Below, one piece after another: positions 42,421-64,000 of a DNA stretch of 64,000 nt. Positions within the stretch are counted from its first letter, which is position 1. Each line of letters starts with the position of its first letter. The translations under genes and the position numbers were made by a program. The notes below the pieces were generated by a model. That model had not been told where the DNA came from. It saw nothing but the letters and a program-made list of their open reading frames with translations, and made no database searches. This DNA is from Ascochyta rabiei (Eukaryota > Ascomycota > Dothideomycetes > Pleosporales > Didymellaceae), in contig NC_082418.1 of the NCBI RefSeq assembly GCF_004011695.2, positions 1,467,557 through 1,531,556 of the forward strand. The letters are read 5' to 3'.

Positions 42421-42719
42421 TAACTTTAACCTACTCTACCCTACCCCTACCTAACCTCTACCTAACCTCTACCTAACCTCTACCTAACCCTACCCTACCT
42501 AACCCTACCCTACCTAACCCCTACCTCTACCCCTAGTCCGTGCAGACTGTACCCTACCCCTACCCCACGCTAGAGGTACCTCTACCCTACCCCTACCTAA
42601 CATCTATGTAGACCCTACCCTACCCCTACCCTATATAGACCCTACCCCTACCCTACCCCTACCTAACGTCTGTGTAGACTGTACCTAACCCCTACCTAAC
42701 CCTAGAGTACCTCCTACCC
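42421..42719. repeat. Interstitial telomere-like CCCTAC/CCTAAC tract
   Basis: About 300 bases are built of CCCTACC, CCTAACC and CTACCCC words, interrupted by short GTCTGTGTAGAC-like pieces. It is the C-strand orientation, opposite to the TTAGGG end of this chromosome. It lies inside copia D, about 260 bp from its right LTR, and shows little RIP, as expected for sequence with few CpA sites. Confidence 0.8.
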
Positions 42720-53180: not shown

Positions 53181-53894
53181 AACTACTAATGTAGTGGAAG
53201 GTTATGCTTGATGCAAAGTGTAGTGTATTGTTGATCGTCCCCAACGAGCCCAATGGCTCATTGAGTCTATCTCGTCACGTGCTAGCTTTGCTACCTTTTC
53301 CGAGCCCTAATGAACCATTGAGATGTAAGCCTATTGGAGGGGATTAGGTGCTTTTCTGTGTCGTACTTACTAGATTTCGGCAGCCAACTGGGTTGGGTAT
53401 AGCGGGTCGCTCACCCCTAACTAGCTCTGGTGGGACTTTAGACAAGACAAAAAATAAGGTTTACAGCAGAGGGGTTTAGGTTAATTAAAGTACAGTAAAT
53501 CTGGCATATTAGCAATTGTCTTTTTTTCTTAGATTTGTTAGCAAACACATATATAATATAGACCCTAATTAACACCTCCCAGTGATTATACGAACAAAGA
53601 CAGTGTATTTGTTCGCTTTGCCTATGTAAATTTTAGCGTGAGCACAGACACTCGACTGTATTTGTTCGCTTTTTCAGCGTGAATTTGTTCGCTGTTCCTG
53701 AAGTCAAATATTGCTGCAACGATTGCGGAACGTGTACAAAGTGCGTCCCAATTGTATGTTGAATTTCTAGAAGAATCGAGCATACAGTACGTGAGTGGAA
53801 TATAGTAGATGTTTCAATATTGATGTTTGCAATGTTATAGGGCAGTATCGATAAGGTATGTAGCACAATGTTCAGAGTTAAGCGCAGGTAACAT
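53181..53894. other. Intergenic with repeated TTTGTTCGCT words
   Basis: No gene. TTTGTTCGCT occurs three times between 53605 and 53700 (near 53609, 53661 and 53686), two of them near TTTAGCGTGA or TTCAGCGTGA, and CAGTGATTATACGAACAAAGACAGTG lies at about 53581-53606. These look like the subterminal repeats of a DNA transposon end; no partner end was found. Confidence 0.45.
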
Positions 53895-55727
53895 CTACTC
53901 TACAGGATGGAACAATTCAAGCAAAGTTAGCTGACGCAACCGCAGAGCTGGCATAGGACTCTTCAGCGAAGCATGACTTTGCTCTCTAGTGCTGTCGTCA
54001 ACGCTGTTGTCAGTTTCGTCGTCTTCGCTGTCTTGAATCTCTTCCACCTCGTAGATGGTTGCTGGCGCCTCCGCCTCAATGCTCAGCGTTTTCTTCTCGT
54101 TGATGGGCCCGCCAGCAATTCCCTCTGGCCCTAACCAGTTCTTAAGTGCCTTGCTAGCTGCACAAATGTCTAGACACTCCTTCTTAAGTAGCTCAATCCA
54201 GACATGCAGCTGGCCTATACAGAGGGTGCGTTCTATCTAGCGATTTACAATCTCGTCGTGTGGTATCAGGGTCAGAATGCCCCAGCCTAGCTCCTGACTA
54301 ATGGAGTACCAGCGCATGGCTTGGCCTAACCGTCGTCTAAACACCTGCTTGTCCTTCTCAGTAGCGTTAGGACTAACTAACTCTACTAGCGCTGCAACTG
54401 CCTCTGTGCGGATCTGTCCCTTTCCGTATCAATTTTGCGTCCTGTCGTTGCTAGATACAAAGTTGTTATGCCAGATCTGCGCTATCTTGTTAGAGTATGC
54501 TTGACCTAGGAGAGCTGACGCCCATCGAGACTCGATATAGACAGCTGCTAGCTCTGCTTCGTAACATGTGCACATGTTCCAGGCAAAGCAGAAATCCCTG
54601 TCAGCATTATTGCGCACACTCAGCAGCTGCAAGCGCTTAGCTCCCGCACCGGTCCTGCTCTGGCTGCCAGCGAGCTCGCCGCCACCTCTGAAGGGTGAGC
54701 CACGTTCTCGCTAAGCCTGCAGGAACTGGGCAGCGTGGTACCGAGAGGACTGGTTTCTAAGCACGCGCACTTTCTCTAGAAGGGTGCAGGCCGTAAGGTA
54801 GGGAGTTTGGGTGGAGCTGTAGAAGTCCGTGTCATCAGAGACCGGCTGCTTAATGATCCAGGCGACGACAGACTCGTCCTTTTGCACAATAGAGGTGTAG
54901 GCAGCCTGCTCTGGAAGAGGAGCCTTGTTGCCAGGTGCTACCAGACCAAGGGCAAGCCGCTTCTTCGCACGCGAAGTGGCGAGTGTCCTGCTGCGTTTTT
55001 GCTCCGCACGGCGGTTGTTGTTAGAGATGGTAGTGATGTGCAGAGGGGAGTCTTTTAGCTGCTTATCTGGTTCGCTAGGCTGTGACAGCTAAGGGCTGGC
55101 TGGATGTGTCTTATTGGTAGTTGTTCGAGCGCGCTTTGGTGTAGGGGCCGGCGCAGATAGGTGTGGCCGCTTCTTTTGTTACGGGGGTGGAGCGGAGGCC
55201 TGTTGTGAAGGGGAAGCAAAGGGCTTCTGCGCAGACGGCGGCTCTTCCATCCCGTCCTCCGCAAGCGACTCGGCCGCGCAGACCAGACGATCCCAGATAT
55301 TGTCAGGCAGGACGTCGTCGGCGAGCGTCTCGCGCAGAAGCCAGATCGCTGACAAGACGGAGTAGGCAATGAAGACGGGCTTGCAGACGCTGGCATCGTC
55401 ACGGGTGGGGATCAGCCATCCTGCGCTGTGCGGACGAGCACCTGGATCACGCTGCGAGCGTAAGATAGTCGCTCGGCAGAAGAAGAGCTTCTTGTAGTCC
55501 TCATTCGGCGGCTCGTACGCGTAGTTGCGAACGAAGTCAGCTTCGCTGGCCAGAGGAAAGCTCCAACGACCGCCATCAAACCGCTCTGCGGCGCTGTCTA
55601 ATGCTGCCAACCAGTGCATTATCGACTTGTGTACTGCAAATGAGGTTGCAAGCAGAAGTTTGGACGAAGGTTGTGCGGAAAGGGGGTTAGGTGTTGTTGA
55701 GGTTCTGACGCGGTCACACCGCGGCAC
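53895..55727 (-). pseudogene. 610-codon protein of unknown family, divergent partner of the telomeric helicase, in-frame stops only
   Basis: One minus frame is continuous over 1833 bases to TAG at 53895-53897, broken only by stops at 55179 (TAA), 55089 (TAG), 54711 (TAG), 54429 (TGA) and 54237 (TAG); most fit CAA or CAG to TAA or TAG. The frame opens at 55733 and the first ATG is at 55619, so the true start or a 5' exon is uncertain. Visible parts: an N-terminal globular part (MHWLAALDSAAERFDGG, IWDRLVCAAESLAEDG), a Pro/Lys/Arg stretch with PKRAR and KKRLAL (possible nuclear signals), a central RRRLGQAMRWYSISQELGWG, and an acidic tail (EEIQDSEDDETD). No catalytic motif recognised. It is head-to-head with the helicase frame, about 125 bp apart. 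Confidence 0.65.
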
Positions 55728-55853
55728 CGAAAGTCAGGCCGCACACGGATGTACCACGACGCCCTCACCAACCAGCATTAGCAGAGCTGGGAGCGCAATT
55801 AAACCAAAAGCAAGATCGATACACAGTCTGTCGATCAATATGCCAGGGGATAG

Positions 55854-58800
55854 CAAACACTAGGCCAACGGACGTGTTGCATAGCGCCCACTTGTGTCCC
55901 TTCTGCTCCTTACACTATAGAACTATTTGCGCAGCTGTTTAAACACCAGCCTGAACTTCAAGTCGTAGTTTGTAAACCATGTGCCACTGCTATTCCACCA
56001 GCGCAGATCGTTACGCACCTCAAAGAGCGCCATCCCAAGGTCACAGTCGCTACGCGCAAGAGCCTGGCGGCAGCTGTACGCGCGCTACCAAACCTTGCGT
56101 AGAGTCCAGGAGACGTGCGTGTACCAAGGCCGGCTAAGGAGCCCATCTTTGGTCTGAAAAGCCGAGAAGACGGGCTGGTATGCTTGTCGGAGCGTTGTTG
56201 GTATACCTGCATCTCGCTGCAGGGCATGCAGAAACATTGCAAGGATGAGCATGGCTGGGTGAACAAACAAAAGCGAGGGGGAGATATAAGGCAAAAGAGC
56301 AAGCACTCGCGCAACCAAGTATGGCGAGACAGCCAATCCTGCCAGCGCTTGTTTAGAGCTGTTGGCTGGCCGGCGTATGTTGCAGTCGAGACGAGCGTTG
56401 GAGCTGCGACTCTAGCAGACATCTCCCAGAGAGTGAAGGCAGATCGCCAGCATCAGCGAGAAGAGCGTAAGGCAGCAGCAGCGCAGGATAAGATTAAAGA
56501 GGGCATCCGTTCGCAGGCTGATCCGTGGCTAGAGCTCACAGAATGGGTCCCGCACCTACAAGGTATCCCAAGGGCGGCACTTCTGCGCGCTAAACAGCTA
56601 GCTGGTGGGGAGGTAGACGCGCGTGGGAAGGAAGAAGTAGCGTTTAACGACACGGGCTTACGCGATGTTTGCAAAGCTATAGAGCGGCTGATACAAAAAG
56701 CGTTCAATAGCAGCCAAGCTGAGGTTGTCGGCAGACTCGCACTGGAGATTATCGAGCGACGTGAGGCAGGCGCAGAATCGAACGAGCGGCCCTTCTACGC
56801 TAGGCATTGAGTCGGTACGATCAAGAAGTACAGCCAGAAGCTGGTAAGCATCCTCTGCTACCTGTGGCGCACATATGACCAGGTCGAGCGGCCGCCATAC
56901 AAACTTACCAGCACGCAAGACGCCCTCTTGGTGTCACTCCAGCAAATAGCCCGCTCAGACAACGCTGCGAAGAAAGAGAAACTAGAAGAGCGATGCCTGC
57001 GCTTTTGGATCGCCTTGCTCAACCACAGCCTGACTGGCGACGAGCACGAGAGCGCACTGCTGAGCGGAGTGGCTGTCCTCGGCCTCAAGCCTGATCACCA
57101 TGGCGGTGGGTGGGTTCCGGCGCACGAGTTCTCGCCAACGCTGTCTGCTTTAATCACTACCTCGAAAGCGCTTGTAGTGCATCATGCCCGCTGCCAGCGA
57201 GATAAAGCGCTTCAGAAAGACCCTTGTACAGCACCTACTGCGTATGAGCTAGTTAAAGACATGTCTGAACAGTTTATGACGCTGTCCGACTTTAAAGGCA
57301 CACCTAGTCCTATGAATCGAATGCTCCGCTTGCGTACGCTAGCTAGAACACAGGCAAAGCGACGTAATACTCCCGGTATCGTGTCGTGGGATGGAGATCG
57401 GCTTCTCATTGACAAGCAGAGCTTTTCGCTAGCCGATCTCCGGTCGATAGTGAAGGGACTCTGCGAGACAGTGCGGTTGCAGCTATTTAAGGACGTCCTA
57501 CTCTTGGATCTAGACGAAAGGGGTTGCGTGCGACCCGGGACCACCCCGCTTCCAGAGGTGTCCGTGGACAAACTCGTCGATCAGCCAGCCGAGCTGGCTA
57601 CGGGCTGGAGCTTTCTGAAGCACCCCGACAACCAGCTAGATAGATAGCAAGACTGGCTTCTAGACCGGGTGTTGGACGAGGCTCCGCTAAGGGAGAGATT
57701 CATTCGTGGGATAGATAGCACACAACGGCCGGAACGGACGCTATGGCGCAATGACGCTGTAGCTAGGTACATGAAAGGAGTGCGTTAGTTTAAAGAAGGC
57801 CTCTTCACGCTTGTTCACATGTCTGGCGGCGGGCCTGGTCGCGGGACAGAGATTACCTCGATACAGTGCGAGAACAGTGCAGACGGGGTAGGGTATCAGG
57901 GGGTGTTTGTAGAGGGTGGCCTGGTATCCTTCACCACTACGTACCACAAGGGGTATAGCTTTAGCAAGCGTGTTAAGACGATCCACCGCTATGTTCCCTG
58001 GGAGGTGGGTGAGCTGGTGGTGTACTTCCTTGGGCTCGGTCGACCGTTTATAGATGATCTCCAGATGCTGCACAATGGCGTTGCCCGCCCTACCGCTTTC
58101 ATCTGGGAGCCAGAGCCGGAGGAGCAGTGGGGCGACGAGAGCGATAGCGAAGAGAGCGACGACGGAGACGAGTACGGCGAAGCCGACCGTAAGAAGGCAC
58201 GATCCGCTAACCCAGACGGGTACTGGGGCACCAATCGCATACGCCGTGTCCTGCGCAAGCAGACCTTTCAGTACATGAACACCGCTCTCGGCACCCGCGC
58301 CTGGCGGCATGCCTACCCAGCCATCCACCGAGAGCTGGCAAGAGATGGACAAGCACGCGACTGGTTGGAAGTGCTCTACTAGAACAAAGCGCCGGCGAAG
58401 AGCAACGCGCAAGCGTTGCAGTCCGGCCACAGCCTTAAAACAGAGGAGGGCAACTACGGCCGCTCCATAATGGAGTCTCCCTTTCAGACCATGGCTAAGC
58501 AGGAGGAGTTCCGGCGGGTGAGCATGGACTGGCATCGCGTGCTGGAGTTTGCATCCGCCTGGGAGGACGGCCGCATGCACCCCGGTGTTTGCGCAGAGAT
58601 GGTAGCGCAGCAAGAGAAGCAGGCGCTCCAGCGCTGGTCGTCGCTCGCGATGGTGGACCTCAAGGCAGAGTTCAGGCGACTCGCTGGACGGCCGGACGCC
58701 GAGTATCGTGGCAAGCAAGAAGAAAGCCTCAAGGCTGTGATGCAGCGACGGCTGCGCGTGCTAGTTGTTATGGCTACCGGCACCGGCAAGAGTATGCTGT

Positions 58801-60542
58801 TCATGCTGCCCGCGTCTGTCTCGCCAGGCGGCGTCTCCGTGGTCGTGGCTCCGTTGAATGCCTTGCGAGACGATCTGCAAGATCGCTGCGACCAGCTCAG
58901 CATCCCCTGCGCGAAGTGGGATGGAAGAAGACCGCCGTACTGGGCTCGTATTGTGCTAGTGACGCCTGAGAGCGCAGTCACGAAGGCGTTCGGCAGGTTT
59001 ATTAACGAAAAGCGCATGCTCCATCAGCTAGATCGTATCGTGATAGACGAGTGCCACGTGCTGCTGGAGTCGACACAGGACTGGCGGCCAGACCTCCTCA
59101 AGATGGTGGAGATGACGGAGAAGGGCACACAGGTTGTCTACCTGACTGCAACCTTGCCGCCCACGCTGCAGCCCGCCTTCTTGCACACCGCAGGGCTTGA
59201 TGCCCAGACTGTAACCATATACTGCGATGAACGCACCACGCGAACGAACATTACGTACCAGGTGCTAGAGTACACACGTAGCACGCTAGAAAAAGTACTT
59301 ATTAAGCTCGTGGCTGCGAAGAGGAGTAGGTACGGACCCAAGGCGCAGATCATCGTCTATTGTCCAACTGTGGACGAGACGAAACGGCTTGCGAAGCTTC
59401 TGCAGTGCTCTGCATACTACCGTCAGATGGGCTCAGACGAGGAAAAGGCACGCATGGTGCGAAGCTTCACCCTAGGCATAGAGAAGCTTTGTACAGCCAC
59501 GAACATGCTAGGTCTTAGGCTTGACGCTGCAGGCGTCTGGGTGGTGATCCACGTTGCCATGTGTCCCCTGCTGCTCCAATATGTGCAAGAGAGCAGCCGG
59601 GCGGGACGAACGGGGCTCGACAGCGAGTCTATTGTTATGAGAGCGTGCTATGTAACAAAAGAGGGGAGGGTAGAGAAGGCGCTCGGCTACAAGCTGGAGC
59701 GACCTGCAAAGGAGTTTATGACAGTCGAATCCTGTCAGCGAATCGCGATAGACAAGCACATGGACGGCAGACAGAACAGGCAGCAATGCAAGATGGGAGA
59801 GTCGAAGTGTGATCTATGCGAGCGACACCCCGGTAGTACCAAGCGACAAGCCGTCGAAGAAGAGCAGGAAGAGCCAGAGGAGACGCAGGCCGACACTGCG
59901 GCGGTGGCAGCAGAGGAGCAGCGCAGATGTATAGAGCGAGCTATAGTCGTTAAAGAGCGGAGGGTTAAGATCTGGCAACGGCGAAGGACAGAACAAAAAG
60001 TATATGACCTGGAGCGGCTAGAGCAGCACTTCCAGCGCTGGAGCAATGCGTGCGCCATCTGCATGGCCACTCAGGCTGACCCGGCGCGCCACGACTGGAA
60101 GGACTGTTCAAAGGCCAGCGGAGCGCAGATGATATTAATAGAGTCTAAGGTGAAATCTATGCACTAAGTGAAGTGGGAGAAGTATGCGCGGTGTTTTTAC
60201 TGCTGGGCGCCCTAAGCCATCTGCAACAAGTGGGAGGAAACAAGCATACAGGGTGCGTTTAAGACACAAGGGATGCATGTGCCTTGCTAGTACGATGGAG
60301 TGCTCCAGAGAGCAGTAGCTGCGCTGCTTGCCTGCCAGCCACTGATGTGCACGCCATGGCTGGAGCAGCAGATGCAAGACGCCGCGATTGTGCACGGTAG
60401 CGATGAGCTCCGGCTTTACAAGTGGCTCGGATTAAAGATCAAGATGGGCTAGAGAGACGCGAGCCAGATGTGTCGTTTCCTATATGCTTGGGAGAAGGGG
60501 CATGTGCAGTCGTATTTAGCAGACTAGAAAGAATGTGTTTGA
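55854..60542 (+). pseudogene. Telomere-linked RecQ helicase with zinc-finger and tyrosine-recombinase-like regions, stops only
   Basis: One plus frame runs 1563 codons with no frameshift, interrupted at 56100, 56811, 57645, 57786, 58380, 60165, 60213, 60288, 60450, 60525 and 60540 (7 TAG, 2 TAA, 2 TGA). Order: zinc-finger-like CKPC...HLKERH (residues 40-60) and CLSERCWYTC...HCKDEH (about 105-130); a recombinase-like region (663-868: GRGTE, YHKGYS, TRAWRHA, GHSLKTEEGNY); RecQ motifs GTGKS (Lys979), DECH (1065-1068), TATLPP, QESSRAGRTG; and a Cys-rich tail (CDLCERH, CAICMA...HDWKDC, then CFYCWAP and AIC beyond stops). Motif V reads GLRLD where GLGLD is usual. Lengths and order fit fungal telomere-linked helicases next to telomeres. 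The 5' end is unclear: no in-frame ATG before about 56223. Confidence 0.85.
58416..60167 (+). CDS. Longest open part of the helicase frame (RecQ core)
   Basis: These 583 codons without a stop hold the recombinase-like GHS...Y box at the start, both RecA-like helicase domains and the first half of the Cys-rich tail. The frame has no ATG at 58416 (TTG), so it is not a gene in its own right unless it starts at a later ATG such as 58470. Helicase motifs are complete except for the Gly-to-Arg change in motif V. If expressed from an internal start it could still give a helicase fragment; I consider it part of the pseudogene. Confidence 0.5.
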   Translation: MQSGHSLKTEEGNYGRSIMESPFQTMAKQEEFRRVSMDWHRVLEFASAWEDGRMHPGVCAEMVAQQEKQALQRWSSLAMVDLKAEFRRLAGRPDAEYRGKQEESLKAVMQRRLRVLVVMATGTGKSMLFMLPASVSPGGVSVVVAPLNALRDDLQDRCDQLSIPCAKWDGRRPPYWARIVLVTPESAVTKAFGRFINEKRMLHQLDRIVIDECHVLLESTQDWRPDLLKMVEMTEKGTQVVYLTATLPPTLQPAFLHTAGLDAQTVTIYCDERTTRTNITYQVLEYTRSTLEKVLIKLVAAKRSRYGPKAQIIVYCPTVDETKRLAKLLQCSAYYRQMGSDEEKARMVRSFTLGIEKLCTATNMLGLRLDAAGVWVVIHVAMCPLLLQYVQESSRAGRTGLDSESIVMRACYVTKEGRVEKALGYKLERPAKEFMTVESCQRIAIDKHMDGRQNRQQCKMGESKCDLCERHPGSTKRQAVEEEQEEPEETQADTAAVAAEEQRRCIERAIVVKERRVKIWQRRRTEQKVYDLERLEQHFQRWSNACAICMATQADPARHDWKDCSKASGAQMILIESKVKSMH

Positions 60543-60714
60543 TATAACCGTAACCCGAAACCTTAGGTCAGGAGAAGTCAGGAGAAACGTGCTGTAGGCT
60601 GACTTGCGACTACACAGTGATCACAAGTCAGAAAGTGCAAAACAGCCAAATAGCAACACAGACACTTCAGAGACGTAGAAAGAAACGCCCAGAGAAGGGC
60701 CACCAACCAAAGTA
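60543..60714. other. Spacer after the helicase frame
   Basis: No gene or motif. It leads into the satellite. Confidence 0.4.
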
Positions 60715-61400
60715 GTCCCCACAACCCGAGTGATACCCGCCAACCCAAGTAATACCCGCCAACCCAAGTAGAGCCCCCCAACCCAAGTAGAGCCCCCAAC
60801 CCATACGGATCCCCCAACTTAAGTAGAACCCCCAACCCAAGTAGAGCCCCCAACCCATGCGGATCCCCTAACCCAAGTAGAGCCCCCGACCCAAGTAGAG
60901 CCCCCAACCCAAGTAGAGCCCCTGACCCAAGTAGAGCCCCCAACCCATGCGGATCCCCCAATCCACGTAGTCAGCACCAACCCGCATAGTCAGCATTAAC
61001 CCGCGTAGTAAGCATCAACCTGCGCAGTAAGCATCAATCCACATAGTTACATGGTCAGCATCAAGCCGCGTAGTCAGCACAAACCCGCGTGGTTCCCCAA
61101 GTAGTTCCACAAGTAGTGCGTCAACCCAAGTGGTTGCCCCACCCGAGTGGCACGTCCAACCCGAGTAGGTCCCCTAATCCAAGTGGTTCCTAAGTAGTTC
61201 CCTACGTGGTTCCCCAAGTAGCGCGCCAAGTAGTGCGCCACCCTAAGTGGTCCGAAAGTAGTCCCCCAAAGTGGCCTGAAAGTGGTCCCTGCAAGCCAAG
61301 GGAGTCCACATCAGTGCCCCCAAGTAGTAAGAGCCAATCATTTAAGAAGAGCCCCCGATCCAGGAAGAGCCCACAATCCGGAGAGAGCAGACCAAACCAA
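60715..61400. repeat. Subtelomeric satellite, C-rich AACCCAAGTAGAGCCCCC-type units
   Basis: Roughly 18-bp units (AACCCAAGTAGAGCCCCC, with AACCCATGCGGATCCCCC variants) fill 60760-60960. They change to AACCCGCGTAGTCAGCATC units (to about 61080) and then to CCAAGTAGTTCC and CCAAAGTGG variants (to about 61400). The minus-strand Gly/Leu-rich frames (GLGALLGLG) only reflect the repeat. Confidence 0.85.
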
Positions 61401-61839
61401 GTAAGTCCCCATCCAAAAGCAGCCGTGCGTATTGAAGAAAGTGAGAGTCAGGACAAAGTAAATTTGGATAGATAGTAGAGTAGTTGAGAAAGACATGCGC
61501 AATAGGTAGAAGAGCCAGCAGGATGGTGGATGGGAGAGGTACAAGAAGTTATTCGTGCAAGAGGGCGTCAATCGCGTTAATCGCGCGAATTTAGATTAGG
61601 CAGGGTTGGTTGCTTTGTAAATCGGGTATAAGAATGAATGGTAGAGGGAAAGGGCATTTGAACAGGGTATCAGGTAGATTGGAAAGATAGAACAGGATAA
61701 AAATGACGTGGAGCAAGGTGTTTTGGGCGTTTACATAGTATTGTCACAAGATAGAACAGTAGTTAGGGGAAGTTTGGCAAATCCGATTGTGGTGCCGCAG
61801 CCCAGAAAGGCATTCCTGAACCTGTAGATGCCGTAGTGC

Positions 61840-62215
61840 GTAAGAGAGGGGCGGGCGGAGGGCCCGTCAGGTGTCACAAAGCAGTTGGGCAGGGCGGTAG
61901 AGGGTAAAGGAGAAAGAGGGGAGGTGGGTGGGGCCGTGATAAGGCATCACGAGCAAAGGATGAAGGAGAGAAGAGAGTAGAATAAGGGTGGGCGGTGGGC
62001 CCGTGATAAGGTATCATGGGAGAGGGGGGTAGAGGGTTGGGCGGGGGGGCCCGTGGATGTGCCCCCGGAGCGATGCGGTTAAGAGTGAAGGAGGGGAGGT
62101 GTTTAAGACCGTGAAGCGGGATAGAGAAGAGTAGCAGGTAAGCAGGGTGAAGAAGAGAAAGTGGGTGGGCGGTAGGCCCGTCAAGTGTTACACAAGAGTG
62201 AAGAGGCAGTTATAG
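61840..62215. repeat. G-rich subterminal repeat with GGGCCCGT...GATAAGGTATCA
   Basis: About five imperfect units at intervals of roughly 70-120 bp share GGGTGGGCGGTGGGCCCGT and often GATAAGG(T/C)ATCA. Closely spaced G runs could form quadruplexes on the plus strand. No coding. Confidence 0.65.
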
Positions 62216-62329
62216 AGATAGATAAGCGGTATAGAGAGCGGTTTTAAGGCGAATTTTTTTCAGCAACACAATGGTAGTAGCAATCAGAGTAGTGTTGTTC
62301 ATGCAGCAGTATAACAGCGCGCAAGTAGC

Positions 62330-63894
62330 AGAGATAGGGTTAAGAGATGTATAAAAGAAGAAAAGGAAAGAAAAGAGAAATGAAAGAATTGTTAAGAGAA
62401 GAGAATAGTAGAGAGGATAAAGTAAGAAGAGAAGTAGAAAAAGGTAAAAAATTGTTAAAAGAGTGTTAGTAGGATAGAAAAGATAGTTAAATGTAGTATT
62501 TAATAAAGAGAGAGTGTAAAAGTATTAGAAAAGATATTTAAAGTGATTAAGATGTAAAGATAGTAAATGAAGAAAAAAGAGTAGAAAATAGAGAAAGATG
62601 AAAAGAAAGAATTAAAAAGAAGAGAAGAAAGTAGAAGAAGAAGTTAGTTTATTAAAAGATGTATGAAATAAAAGAGTAGTTAAATAGAAGGTGAAAAGAA
62701 AAGAAAGATTAGAAAGAGTAAAAGTTGAGAAAAGAAAGAAGGTTGAAGAGAAAAAGTGTAGAAAGAGGAAGGAAAGGAAAAAGTAAAGTAAAAAGGAAAG
62801 TTGTAGTTTGTTAGAAATTTAAAAAGGTTGAGGAAGAAGTAAATAAGGAGAAAAGAAGAGAAAAGGTATAAAAAGAAGTAAAAAGTAGAGAGTATATGTT
62901 TAAAGAGTTTATAAAGAGTTTAGGGAAAGAGATAAGAGATAGAAAGAAGAGAGAGATTGAGAAGAAAATTTAGAAAAGTAGAAAGAATAAGAATAGAGTA
63001 AAGAAAGTAAGAGGTAAGGATAGAAGAAAGAAGTAGAAGAAAAGGAAAAGAAGTTAAAAGAGGTTAGTTAAGAAGAAAATAATGTTTAAGAAAGAAAGAT
63101 AAGAGAGTAAAGTAGGTTAAGAAGAGAGTAAGAATAATAGGTAGGTGTTAGTATAGAAAGAGAGTATAAGTTTAGAAAAGAAAAGTTAGTAGGGTAAGAA
63201 GTAAAAGTAGAAATGGGGTAAAAAGAGTAAGAAGAGAGAGGTAAAGGTAGAAAAAAAAAAGGTAAGAAAGAGTAGGAGAAGTAGAGAGAAAAGTAGGAGA
63301 AGTAAGAGGGAAGTTAAGAGAAGAAGGAAAAGGTGAGAGAGTAAGTGTGAGGGTTAGGGTTTTAGTGTTTTAAGAGGAGTTAGAAAGAGAGGTTAGAGAA
63401 GTTTAAAGGTAGGGAAAAAAAGGGTGGAAGAGGAAGAAGTGAAAAGAAAAGAGAGGAAGTGGAAGGAGAAGAGGAGGAAGTGAAAAAAAAAGAGAAGAAA
63501 GTAAAGTAAAGTTTTAAAGAGTTGTAGAGAGTTGAGAAAGAGGTAAGGGTGAGTTAGAAGAGAGTGTGAGTGAAGAGTTAGGGTTTAGGGTAAAAGTAGT
63601 AGTAGAAAGAGAAGTAAAGGTAGAAGGAAAAGTAGAAGAAAAAAGGGAAAGTGTAGAGAAAAAGAAAAGAAAAGAGAGGAAAAGGGAAAAAAGGGTGTAG
63701 AGGTGGAAGTAGTAGAAGAGAAGAGGGTTAGGGTTTTAGAGTGGGAGAGTGTTAGGGTTAGTAAGTAAAGTTAGAGAGAAAGGGGTGTTGAAAGGAGAGG
63801 AGTTTGGATGGAAGAAAGTGGTAGTTGGGAAGGAAAGGAGTAAAGAAGGGTTTAAAAAAGGGAGAGAGAGATGAGATTGGAAGGGGGATTGGAA
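62330..63894 (+). repeat. Cytosine-free, purine-rich telomere-adjacent tract
   Basis: After the C at 62329 not one C occurs on the plus strand up to the telomere. The tract is mostly A and G with some T, full of GAAGAAG and AGAAAG words. It begins with GATAGGGTTAAGAG and contains scattered telomere words (TTAGGG near 63353, 63578, 63727 and 63753). No ORF. Confidence 0.95.
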
Positions 63895-64000
63895 TAGGGT
63901 TAGGGTTAGGGTTAGGGTTAGGGTTAGGGTTAGGGTTAGGGTTAGGGTTAGGGTTAGGGTTAGGGTTAGGGTTAGGGTTAGGGTTAGGGTTAGGGTTAGG
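63895..64000 (+). repeat. Telomere, (TTAGGG)n
   Basis: Perfect TAGGGT units continue to the last base, about 17.7 copies. The G strand runs 5' to 3' toward the right, so this is a true right chromosome end in the assembly. Confidence 0.99.

Follow-up and report, generated by a model that had tools for sequence, protein, structure and literature searches.

The telomere-linked helicase ('TLH') encoded near the right end of the Ascochyta rabiei contig NC_082418.1 is probably a transposase-like enzyme belonging to a mobile element of chromosome ends, for which the telomere itself serves as the second end. Such genes have been known from the chromosome ends of fungi since about 1998, their function never having become clear; the gene considered here encodes a RecQ-like helicase, is present in multiple copies and adjoins telomeres, the properties by which the class is recognised. 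It lies in a stretch of 64,000 nucleotides (positions 1,467,557 to 1,531,556 of the contig in assembly GCF_004011695.2, hereafter 'the window') that runs to the chromosome terminus. The computed basis for this reading consists of a predicted protein fold, near-invariant catalytic residues and purifying selection within the gene, together with exact proximal ends in three families of terminal units, many different flanks beside those ends, a fixed orientation and a near-constant length to the telomere. A preliminary description of this DNA had proposed that the protein might be, or derive from, a mobile-element recombinase-helicase that had become adapted to chromosome ends, and the genome anatomy (exact ends, orientation and constant length) lends support to that proposal.

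A recombinase-like domain within the TLH gene

The features of the gene are as follows, in window coordinates, with residues numbered from 55854.

55917..60530, forward strand: TLH gene, with the order OrsD, recombinase, RecQ; broken in the window
55932..56255, forward strand: OrsD (PF12013) zinc-finger domain, matched by Pfam and interrupted by a stop codon
56790..57371, forward strand: helical region, tentatively a core-binding domain; in the larger model it falls within the range aligned to the N-terminal parts of XerH and Cre
57369..58571, forward strand: predicted tyrosine-recombinase catalytic domain, the stretch modelled from the open C5 copy L010
57840..57842, forward strand: R663, Arg I, from motif and alignments
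57948..57950, forward strand: K699, flanked by two strands in the model, from motif and alignments
58305..58307, forward strand: R818, Arg II of an HxxR-like box, from motif and alignments
58428..58430, forward strand: H859, His III, from motif and alignments
58455..58457, forward strand: Y868, putative nucleophile, from motif and alignments
58716..59615, forward strand: RecQ-type helicase (DEAD and Helicase_C), matched by Pfam

Both limits of the gene are approximate, the start having been set by comparison with the copy L060 and the end by a by-eye reading beyond the TAA at 60165 together with the lengths of homologues. The frame in the window contains stops at residues 83, 319, 598, 645, 843 and 1438, while other TLH copies in the genome have long open frames. 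Four tyrosine-recombinase-like motifs had been noticed by eye in a single frame, after zinc-finger-like motifs and before the RecQ motifs; they are indeed found there, and the zinc-finger-like motifs correspond to the Pfam family OrsD. Between OrsD and the DEAD and Helicase_C domains there is no Pfam match above cut-off, and when the profile of alignment A1 (described below) was compared with the PDB only helicases appeared among the matches listed (60 of 282), the solved structures nearest by sequence to the TLH being, among those, RecQ helicases.

Conservation of the putative catalytic residues was followed through three homologue searches, in two of which the best 8,000 candidates were scored: residues 400-900 of the window protein recovered 72 proteins, and the relative P0073 recovered 61 (itself included); a third, with P0071, recovered 158, of which 120 were listed. 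Alignment A1 combines one open copy from this genome with 64 of the 72 homologues (P0006, P0008, P0010, P0013, P0028, P0038, P0065 and P0072 being excluded), and within its 65 rows R663 is kept in 64/64, K699 in 65/65, R818 in 65/65, H859 in 64/64 and Y868 in 63/64. A broader alignment, A4, of 83 chosen rows reaching down to 20% identity, retains the arginine, lysine, arginine, histidine and tyrosine in 83, 83, 83, 81 and 83 rows, respectively. Loss of R663, R818 or Y868 from homologues had been named in advance as grounds for abandoning the recombinase assignment; the complete R-K-R-H-Y set is instead near-universal, being kept in 222 of the 226 proteins that have a residue at each of the five positions (from 252 proteins including that of the window, 251 were aligned and 25 were incomplete; a protein with two domains passes if either fits). 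One such two-domain protein, P0066, has phenylalanine in place of the tyrosine in one of its domains. If columns of the same residue types are drawn at random from the whole fragment, the chance that all five reach at least 98% is 3.6e-6, and it is 3e-4 when the draw is confined to the well-conserved recombinase domain.

Computation also shows that the recombinase domain is under purifying selection: between an open copy and a copy 76% identical to it there, dN/dS is 0.10 for the recombinase against 0.20 for the helicase, values that are rough (dS exceeds 1, and one stop in the compared copy was skipped). A predicted fold unrelated to tyrosine recombinases had been set as a second ground for abandoning the assignment. 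Computation gives the domain a predicted tyrosine-recombinase fold, since the best structural alignments, of a catalytic-domain model and of a larger model alike, are to tyrosine recombinases; the aligned ranges of the larger model begin at residue 127 (XerH) or 96 (Cre), with root-mean-square deviations of 7.6-8.3. Neither of the two grounds was borne out; sequence profiles and Foldseek by themselves gave no signal (see below). Taken together, these data suggest a conserved recombinase-like active site, for which a catalytic role rests on conservation and the predicted fold.

The same domain seems, from sequence, to occur also without a helicase. The helicase motif DE[C/V/A]H is present in 143 of the 222 proteins with R-K-R-H-Y and absent from 79; nine of these 79 do have a helicase domain by precomputed Pfam assignments, others among them may be fragmentary, and many are OrsD-bearing proteins of 750-1,050 amino acids. 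Helicase-less relatives with identical recombinase residues (within P0073-P0128) are common in Fusarium, Metarhizium and Purpureocillium, examples being P0079 of Metarhizium robertsii and P0092 of Fusarium oxysporum; in P0073 the OrsD match sits at the C-terminal side. Three TLH-like records are filed under Mycobacterium kansasii (P0133), a Pseudonocardiaceae metagenome-assembled genome (P0227) and the plant Tanacetum cinerariifolium (P0138), and are probably fungal contamination.

These relatives bear on the possibility that the TLH is a domesticated yet active recombinase- or topoisomerase-like enzyme of telomere maintenance, acting on junctions or hairpins, while the units around it spread by other means. 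Such a role is improbable: the helicase-less relatives retain the same residues, the units have exact proximal ends with clustered half-sites (described below), and many inner TLH copies carry numerous TAG and TAA stops, which can be read as repeat-induced point mutation (RIP) acting on a repeat.

Terminal units with an exact proximal end

The TLH gene is contained in a unit that extends from a sharply defined inner boundary to the telomere, and that has the following features in the window.

53576..64000, forward strand: terminal unit of family F1, window copy, 10,425 bp, bounded by the exact proximal end and the telomere
53576..53615, forward strand: proximal terminus CTCCCAGTGATTATACGAACAAAGACAGTGTATTTGTTCG, with the 8-bp inverted repeat CGAACAAA-N9-TTTGTTCG
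53591, 53608, 53661 and 53684 (span 53591..53691), no strand assigned: four exact copies of the putative half-site CGAACAAA/TTTGTTCG
53898..55733, reverse strand: companion gene, divergent to the TLH gene, with 5 stops in the window copy
60699..60970, forward strand: 18-bp tandem repeat where the tail begins
63895..64000, forward strand: terminal TTAGGG array, the right chromosome end and distal boundary of the unit

When the window is compared with five other chromosome ends, the match stops at 53572-53576 in every case, and none extends into the window's flank. A genome search with the proximal end returned 37 copies, all aligned to one start (33 with CTCCC, three with CTCCT and one with TTCCC) and all oriented towards the nearer telomere; at 32 different ends such a copy forms the terminal unit. 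Their 40-base flanks comprise 34 distinct strings; merging those within 4 edits leaves 32 groups and merging those within 14 edits leaves 26, the latter by pooling nine purine-rich flanks (none of 2,000 random pairs falls within 14 edits), and since some flanks differ by only 1-4 edits and many of the purine-rich ones resemble each other loosely, a fair range for the number of independent flanks is 26 to 32 groups. Two further families have ends of their own: among 16 F4-side loci, 13 start with CTATCC (their flanks being 12 distinct strings in 11 groups), the end not being seen in L102, L106 or L114 within the 800 bases read from each, and F3 starts with CTAACT in 4/4 loci (four groups). CT opens the end sequence of each of the three families. 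The loci L105 and L114 share a start, CTGACAGTTAATACTTTTC (CTGACAG), beside differing flanks, and may be members of a fourth family whose end is likewise exact.

Of the 32 terminal F1 units, 28 measure 12,390-12,459 bp, and the window copy, at C14 right, is among the four that are shorter, the others being those of C13 left, C11 right and C9 right. Over the final 3 kb, C5 left and C21 left are both 99% identical to C8 left and share its telomere junction, and the final 800 bases of the window differ from the C8 tail near the telomere. Because most terminal units have one length and no old tail lies beyond them, each join appears to have replaced everything distal to it; the proximal end is therefore the sole working end seen, and the telomere is the other boundary. 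A two-ended element inserting into old tails was considered and rejected, given that terminal units hold a near-constant length to the telomere.

Spread of a terminal block by ectopic recombination or break-induced replication, with the recombinase-like domain incidental, is a known route for subtelomeric sequences and may even out existing copies. The proximal 2.9 kb of the unit is 97-98% identical among six ends, as such homogenisation would have it, and several sets of near-identical flanks (L065/L066/L086, L068/L073, L069/L080 and L078/L090) resemble duplicated segments. As the origin of the units it is nonetheless very improbable, because one boundary base recurs beside at least 26 groups of flanks and three families each have their own end.

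A constant proximal end, head-to-tail arrays and capped truncated ends would also be predicted if RNA with a fixed 3' end were reverse-transcribed onto broken chromosome ends, in the manner of HeT-A in Drosophila. Neither the TLH pieces nor the companion gave a reverse-transcriptase match above cut-off, and a single hit to RVT_1 (E 0.17) among 16 trimmed domains is taken as chance; poly(A) is absent at the joins, and the RNA would need to span 12 kb including telomere. A retrotransposon-like origin of this kind is very improbable.

The first 116 bases of the unit contain the 8-mer CGAACAAA/TTTGTTCG four times, once inverted, out of five occurrences in the 64-kb window. Among 19,420 8-mers in window positions 1-60600, 22 reach four occurrences within 120 bases, and the remaining 21 are tandem or simple repeats as judged by eye. 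Random 60-mers contain an inverted repeat like that of F1 in 120 of 20,000 cases. The sequence CGAACAAA/TTTGTTCG may constitute half-sites bound by the recombinase. A search for exact 8-mers found no distal half-site in the window past 53691; the C8 unit has one further copy, within the TLH gene.

The flanks themselves indicate where units have joined. In 17 of the 37 cases the flank matches the unit itself, always in the same orientation, and in 16 of these the match lies in the tail, at 7.6-12.3 of 12.43 kb. In eight cases (two of which are probably one site) the flank can be traced to the join in an intact tail, the next base of that tail being T in seven. Interstitial TTAGGG was considered as a general target: at least one occurs in 13 of 37 flanks of 200 bases, against a background of 36/250, and the idea was rejected, 10 of the 13 TTAGGG-bearing flanks being matches to an older tail. 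Well inside the chromosome, window positions 42437-42713 hold clustered repeats resembling CCCTACC/AGGGGTAG.

The companion gene is open over 612 amino acids in the C9 copy (L061:798-2636); its protein has no Pfam family, and its best PDB match has E 0.16. It matches 72 stretches (several being parts of a single gene) that adjoin TLH copies by coordinates and, as judged by eye, run antiparallel to them, and it probably belongs to the unit's machinery.

A possible mechanism and the evidence against it

The reading of the TLH as a transposase-like enzyme can be cast as a series of steps. The element would consist of the exact proximal end (53576, with its clustered half-sites), the companion gene, the TLH gene, a purine-rich tail and the telomere. 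The OrsD and recombinase domains would bind the half-sites, and the tyrosine would cut the proximal end and join it to a weakly preferred target, many recipients being truncated tails of older units. Exact joins of this sort are within the reach of a tyrosine recombinase. Transfer of the outer segment to the chromosome terminus would follow, more likely by copying than by movement, with the fused RecQ motor unwinding or peeling a strand out to that terminus, where no terminator would be necessary. Since the recipient loses everything past the join, the new unit would cap it.

In a conservative version of the last step, a single reciprocal crossover between the unit's proximal end and a short target would exchange chromosome ends uncopied. 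Known tyrosine-recombinase chemistry would suffice for this, and the exact proximal end, the one-sidedness and the recipient's loss of outer sequence would all be accounted for. An exchange of ends alone adds no units, whereas similar terminal copies are found at 32 ends, and it leaves the fused helicase without a role. It is considered unlikely while retaining appreciable weight, and, being a sub-version of the final step proposed above, it overlaps with the preferred reading in probability.

Several observations weigh against the assignment of the TLH as the recombinase of a one-ended element. All junction and unit data come from one genome assembly (40.9 Mb, 23 contigs). Foldseek searches with the TLH models returned no match at E <= 0.001, the top rows for the larger model are unrelated to recombinases, and the tyrosine of that model lies in a poorly modelled loop. 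No recombinase family was recovered by sequence profile, whether by hmmsearch of profile A2 against the PDB or by Pfam and PHROGs scans, and hhalign of A2 with XerD, XerC, FimB, FimE and IntS of Escherichia coli places the Arg boxes in register with weak scores (E 0.044, probability 1.2). PF00589 likewise has no match in this genome. As the preliminary description had stated, the first histidine of the HxxR box is replaced, its column being variable (S, A, R, K, Q and others); some tyrosine recombinase families lack the first histidine or lysine of this box. Glutamine stands for Arg II in P0006, P0109 and the genome copy L021, and arginine for His III in P0129 and P0130. The existence of helicase-less relatives means that the helicase is not always needed.

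The DNA ends add further points of this kind. Inverted repeats are found at the ends of F1, F3 and the F4 copy L099 and are missing at the F4 copy L112, and comparable repeats occur in 3-4% of random 120-mers. Target preference is weak: A occupies -4 in 16 of 26 flank groups (P 0.003) and in 23 of 34 strings, while C occupies -1 in 12 of the groups (P 7e-5) and 12 of the strings; these preferences are post hoc, their P values uncorrected for the 20 positions inspected. Weak target specificity is unusual among tyrosine recombinases.

Relation to known systems

The TLHs of Magnaporthe, Ustilago, Metarhizium and Fusarium are genes of the same kind, with a RecQ-type helicase, a subtelomeric position and multiple copies, and a protein named telomere-linked helicase 1 from Pyrenophora tritici-repentis (P0180) has all five residues. 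Xer, Cre and other tyrosine recombinases resemble the TLH in predicted fold and in the order R-K-R-H-Y, whereas the TLH differs in lacking the first histidine of HxxR, in showing no detectable sequence similarity to them, and in its fusion to OrsD and RecQ.

Fungi harbor other mobile elements with a tyrosine recombinase, namely Starships with their captains (DUF3435) and Cryptons; the TLH unit differs from these in being apparently one-ended, telomere-bound and about 12 kb long, and in its RecQ helicase. Pfam scans gave no match to PF11917 (DUF3435) in five TLH pieces, seven homologues and 16 trimmed domains, in a comparison that included no captain sequence directly and would miss a relation too remote for Pfam. 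The TLH has no match to the Pfam families of Cryptons (Phage_integrase/GCR1_C) either, in a test where Pfam misses the fold itself and no Crypton sequence was compared. Elsewhere in the genome (C9, C7, C18, C15 and others) DUF3435 captains are matched in 16 pieces, 15 of them with internal stops, a decay that may be overstated where introns were read through.

Helitrons offer a working analogy only: they too fuse a nicking-joining enzyme to a helicase and move with one-ended behavior, whereas the TLH has a predicted tyrosine-recombinase fold in place of an HUH nuclease and a RecQ-type in place of a Pif1-type helicase. Pfam finds no Helitron domain in the TLH, and DEAD and Helicase_C instead. 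HeT-A (with arrays of fixed inner end), MoTeR and FoTeR reside at chromosome ends as TLH units do; unlike these retrotransposons, the unit showed no reverse transcriptase above cut-off in its two genes, the short open reading frames of the tail lying outside the scan.

In the literature, passages of PMC11893274, on A. rabiei, call TLH function 'currently unclear', and passages of PMC12857005, where the word 'recombinase' is absent, treat TLHs as host genes; none of these passages mentions a recombinase domain or an exact element end. PMC8381367 mentions TLH in one legend and 'recombinase' 0 times. A full-text search found no coupling of 'telomere-linked helicase' with 'tyrosine recombinase' or 'mobile element', in a coverage that mostly omits subscription papers and preprints, where a description is possible.

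The present data suggest that TLH units are an unrecognised mobile element spreading among chromosome ends. A further proposal, whose chances are put a little short of even, is that they form a novel mobile-element class, one-ended DNA bounded by the telomere. Its fusion of tyrosine recombinase and RecQ helicase would cut at the element's inner end and copy everything distal to it, the telomere as well, onto eroded ends; a selfish element would in this way give many fungi a second means of capping, independent of telomerase. With a conserved recombinase-like active site and an exact element end, TLHs are a candidate mobile-element class with a testable enzyme, half-sites and target. If this reading is true, tyrosine recombinases would join reverse transcriptases and homologous recombination among the agents that build and cap chromosome ends, with a bearing on subtelomere evolution and on telomerase-independent survival.
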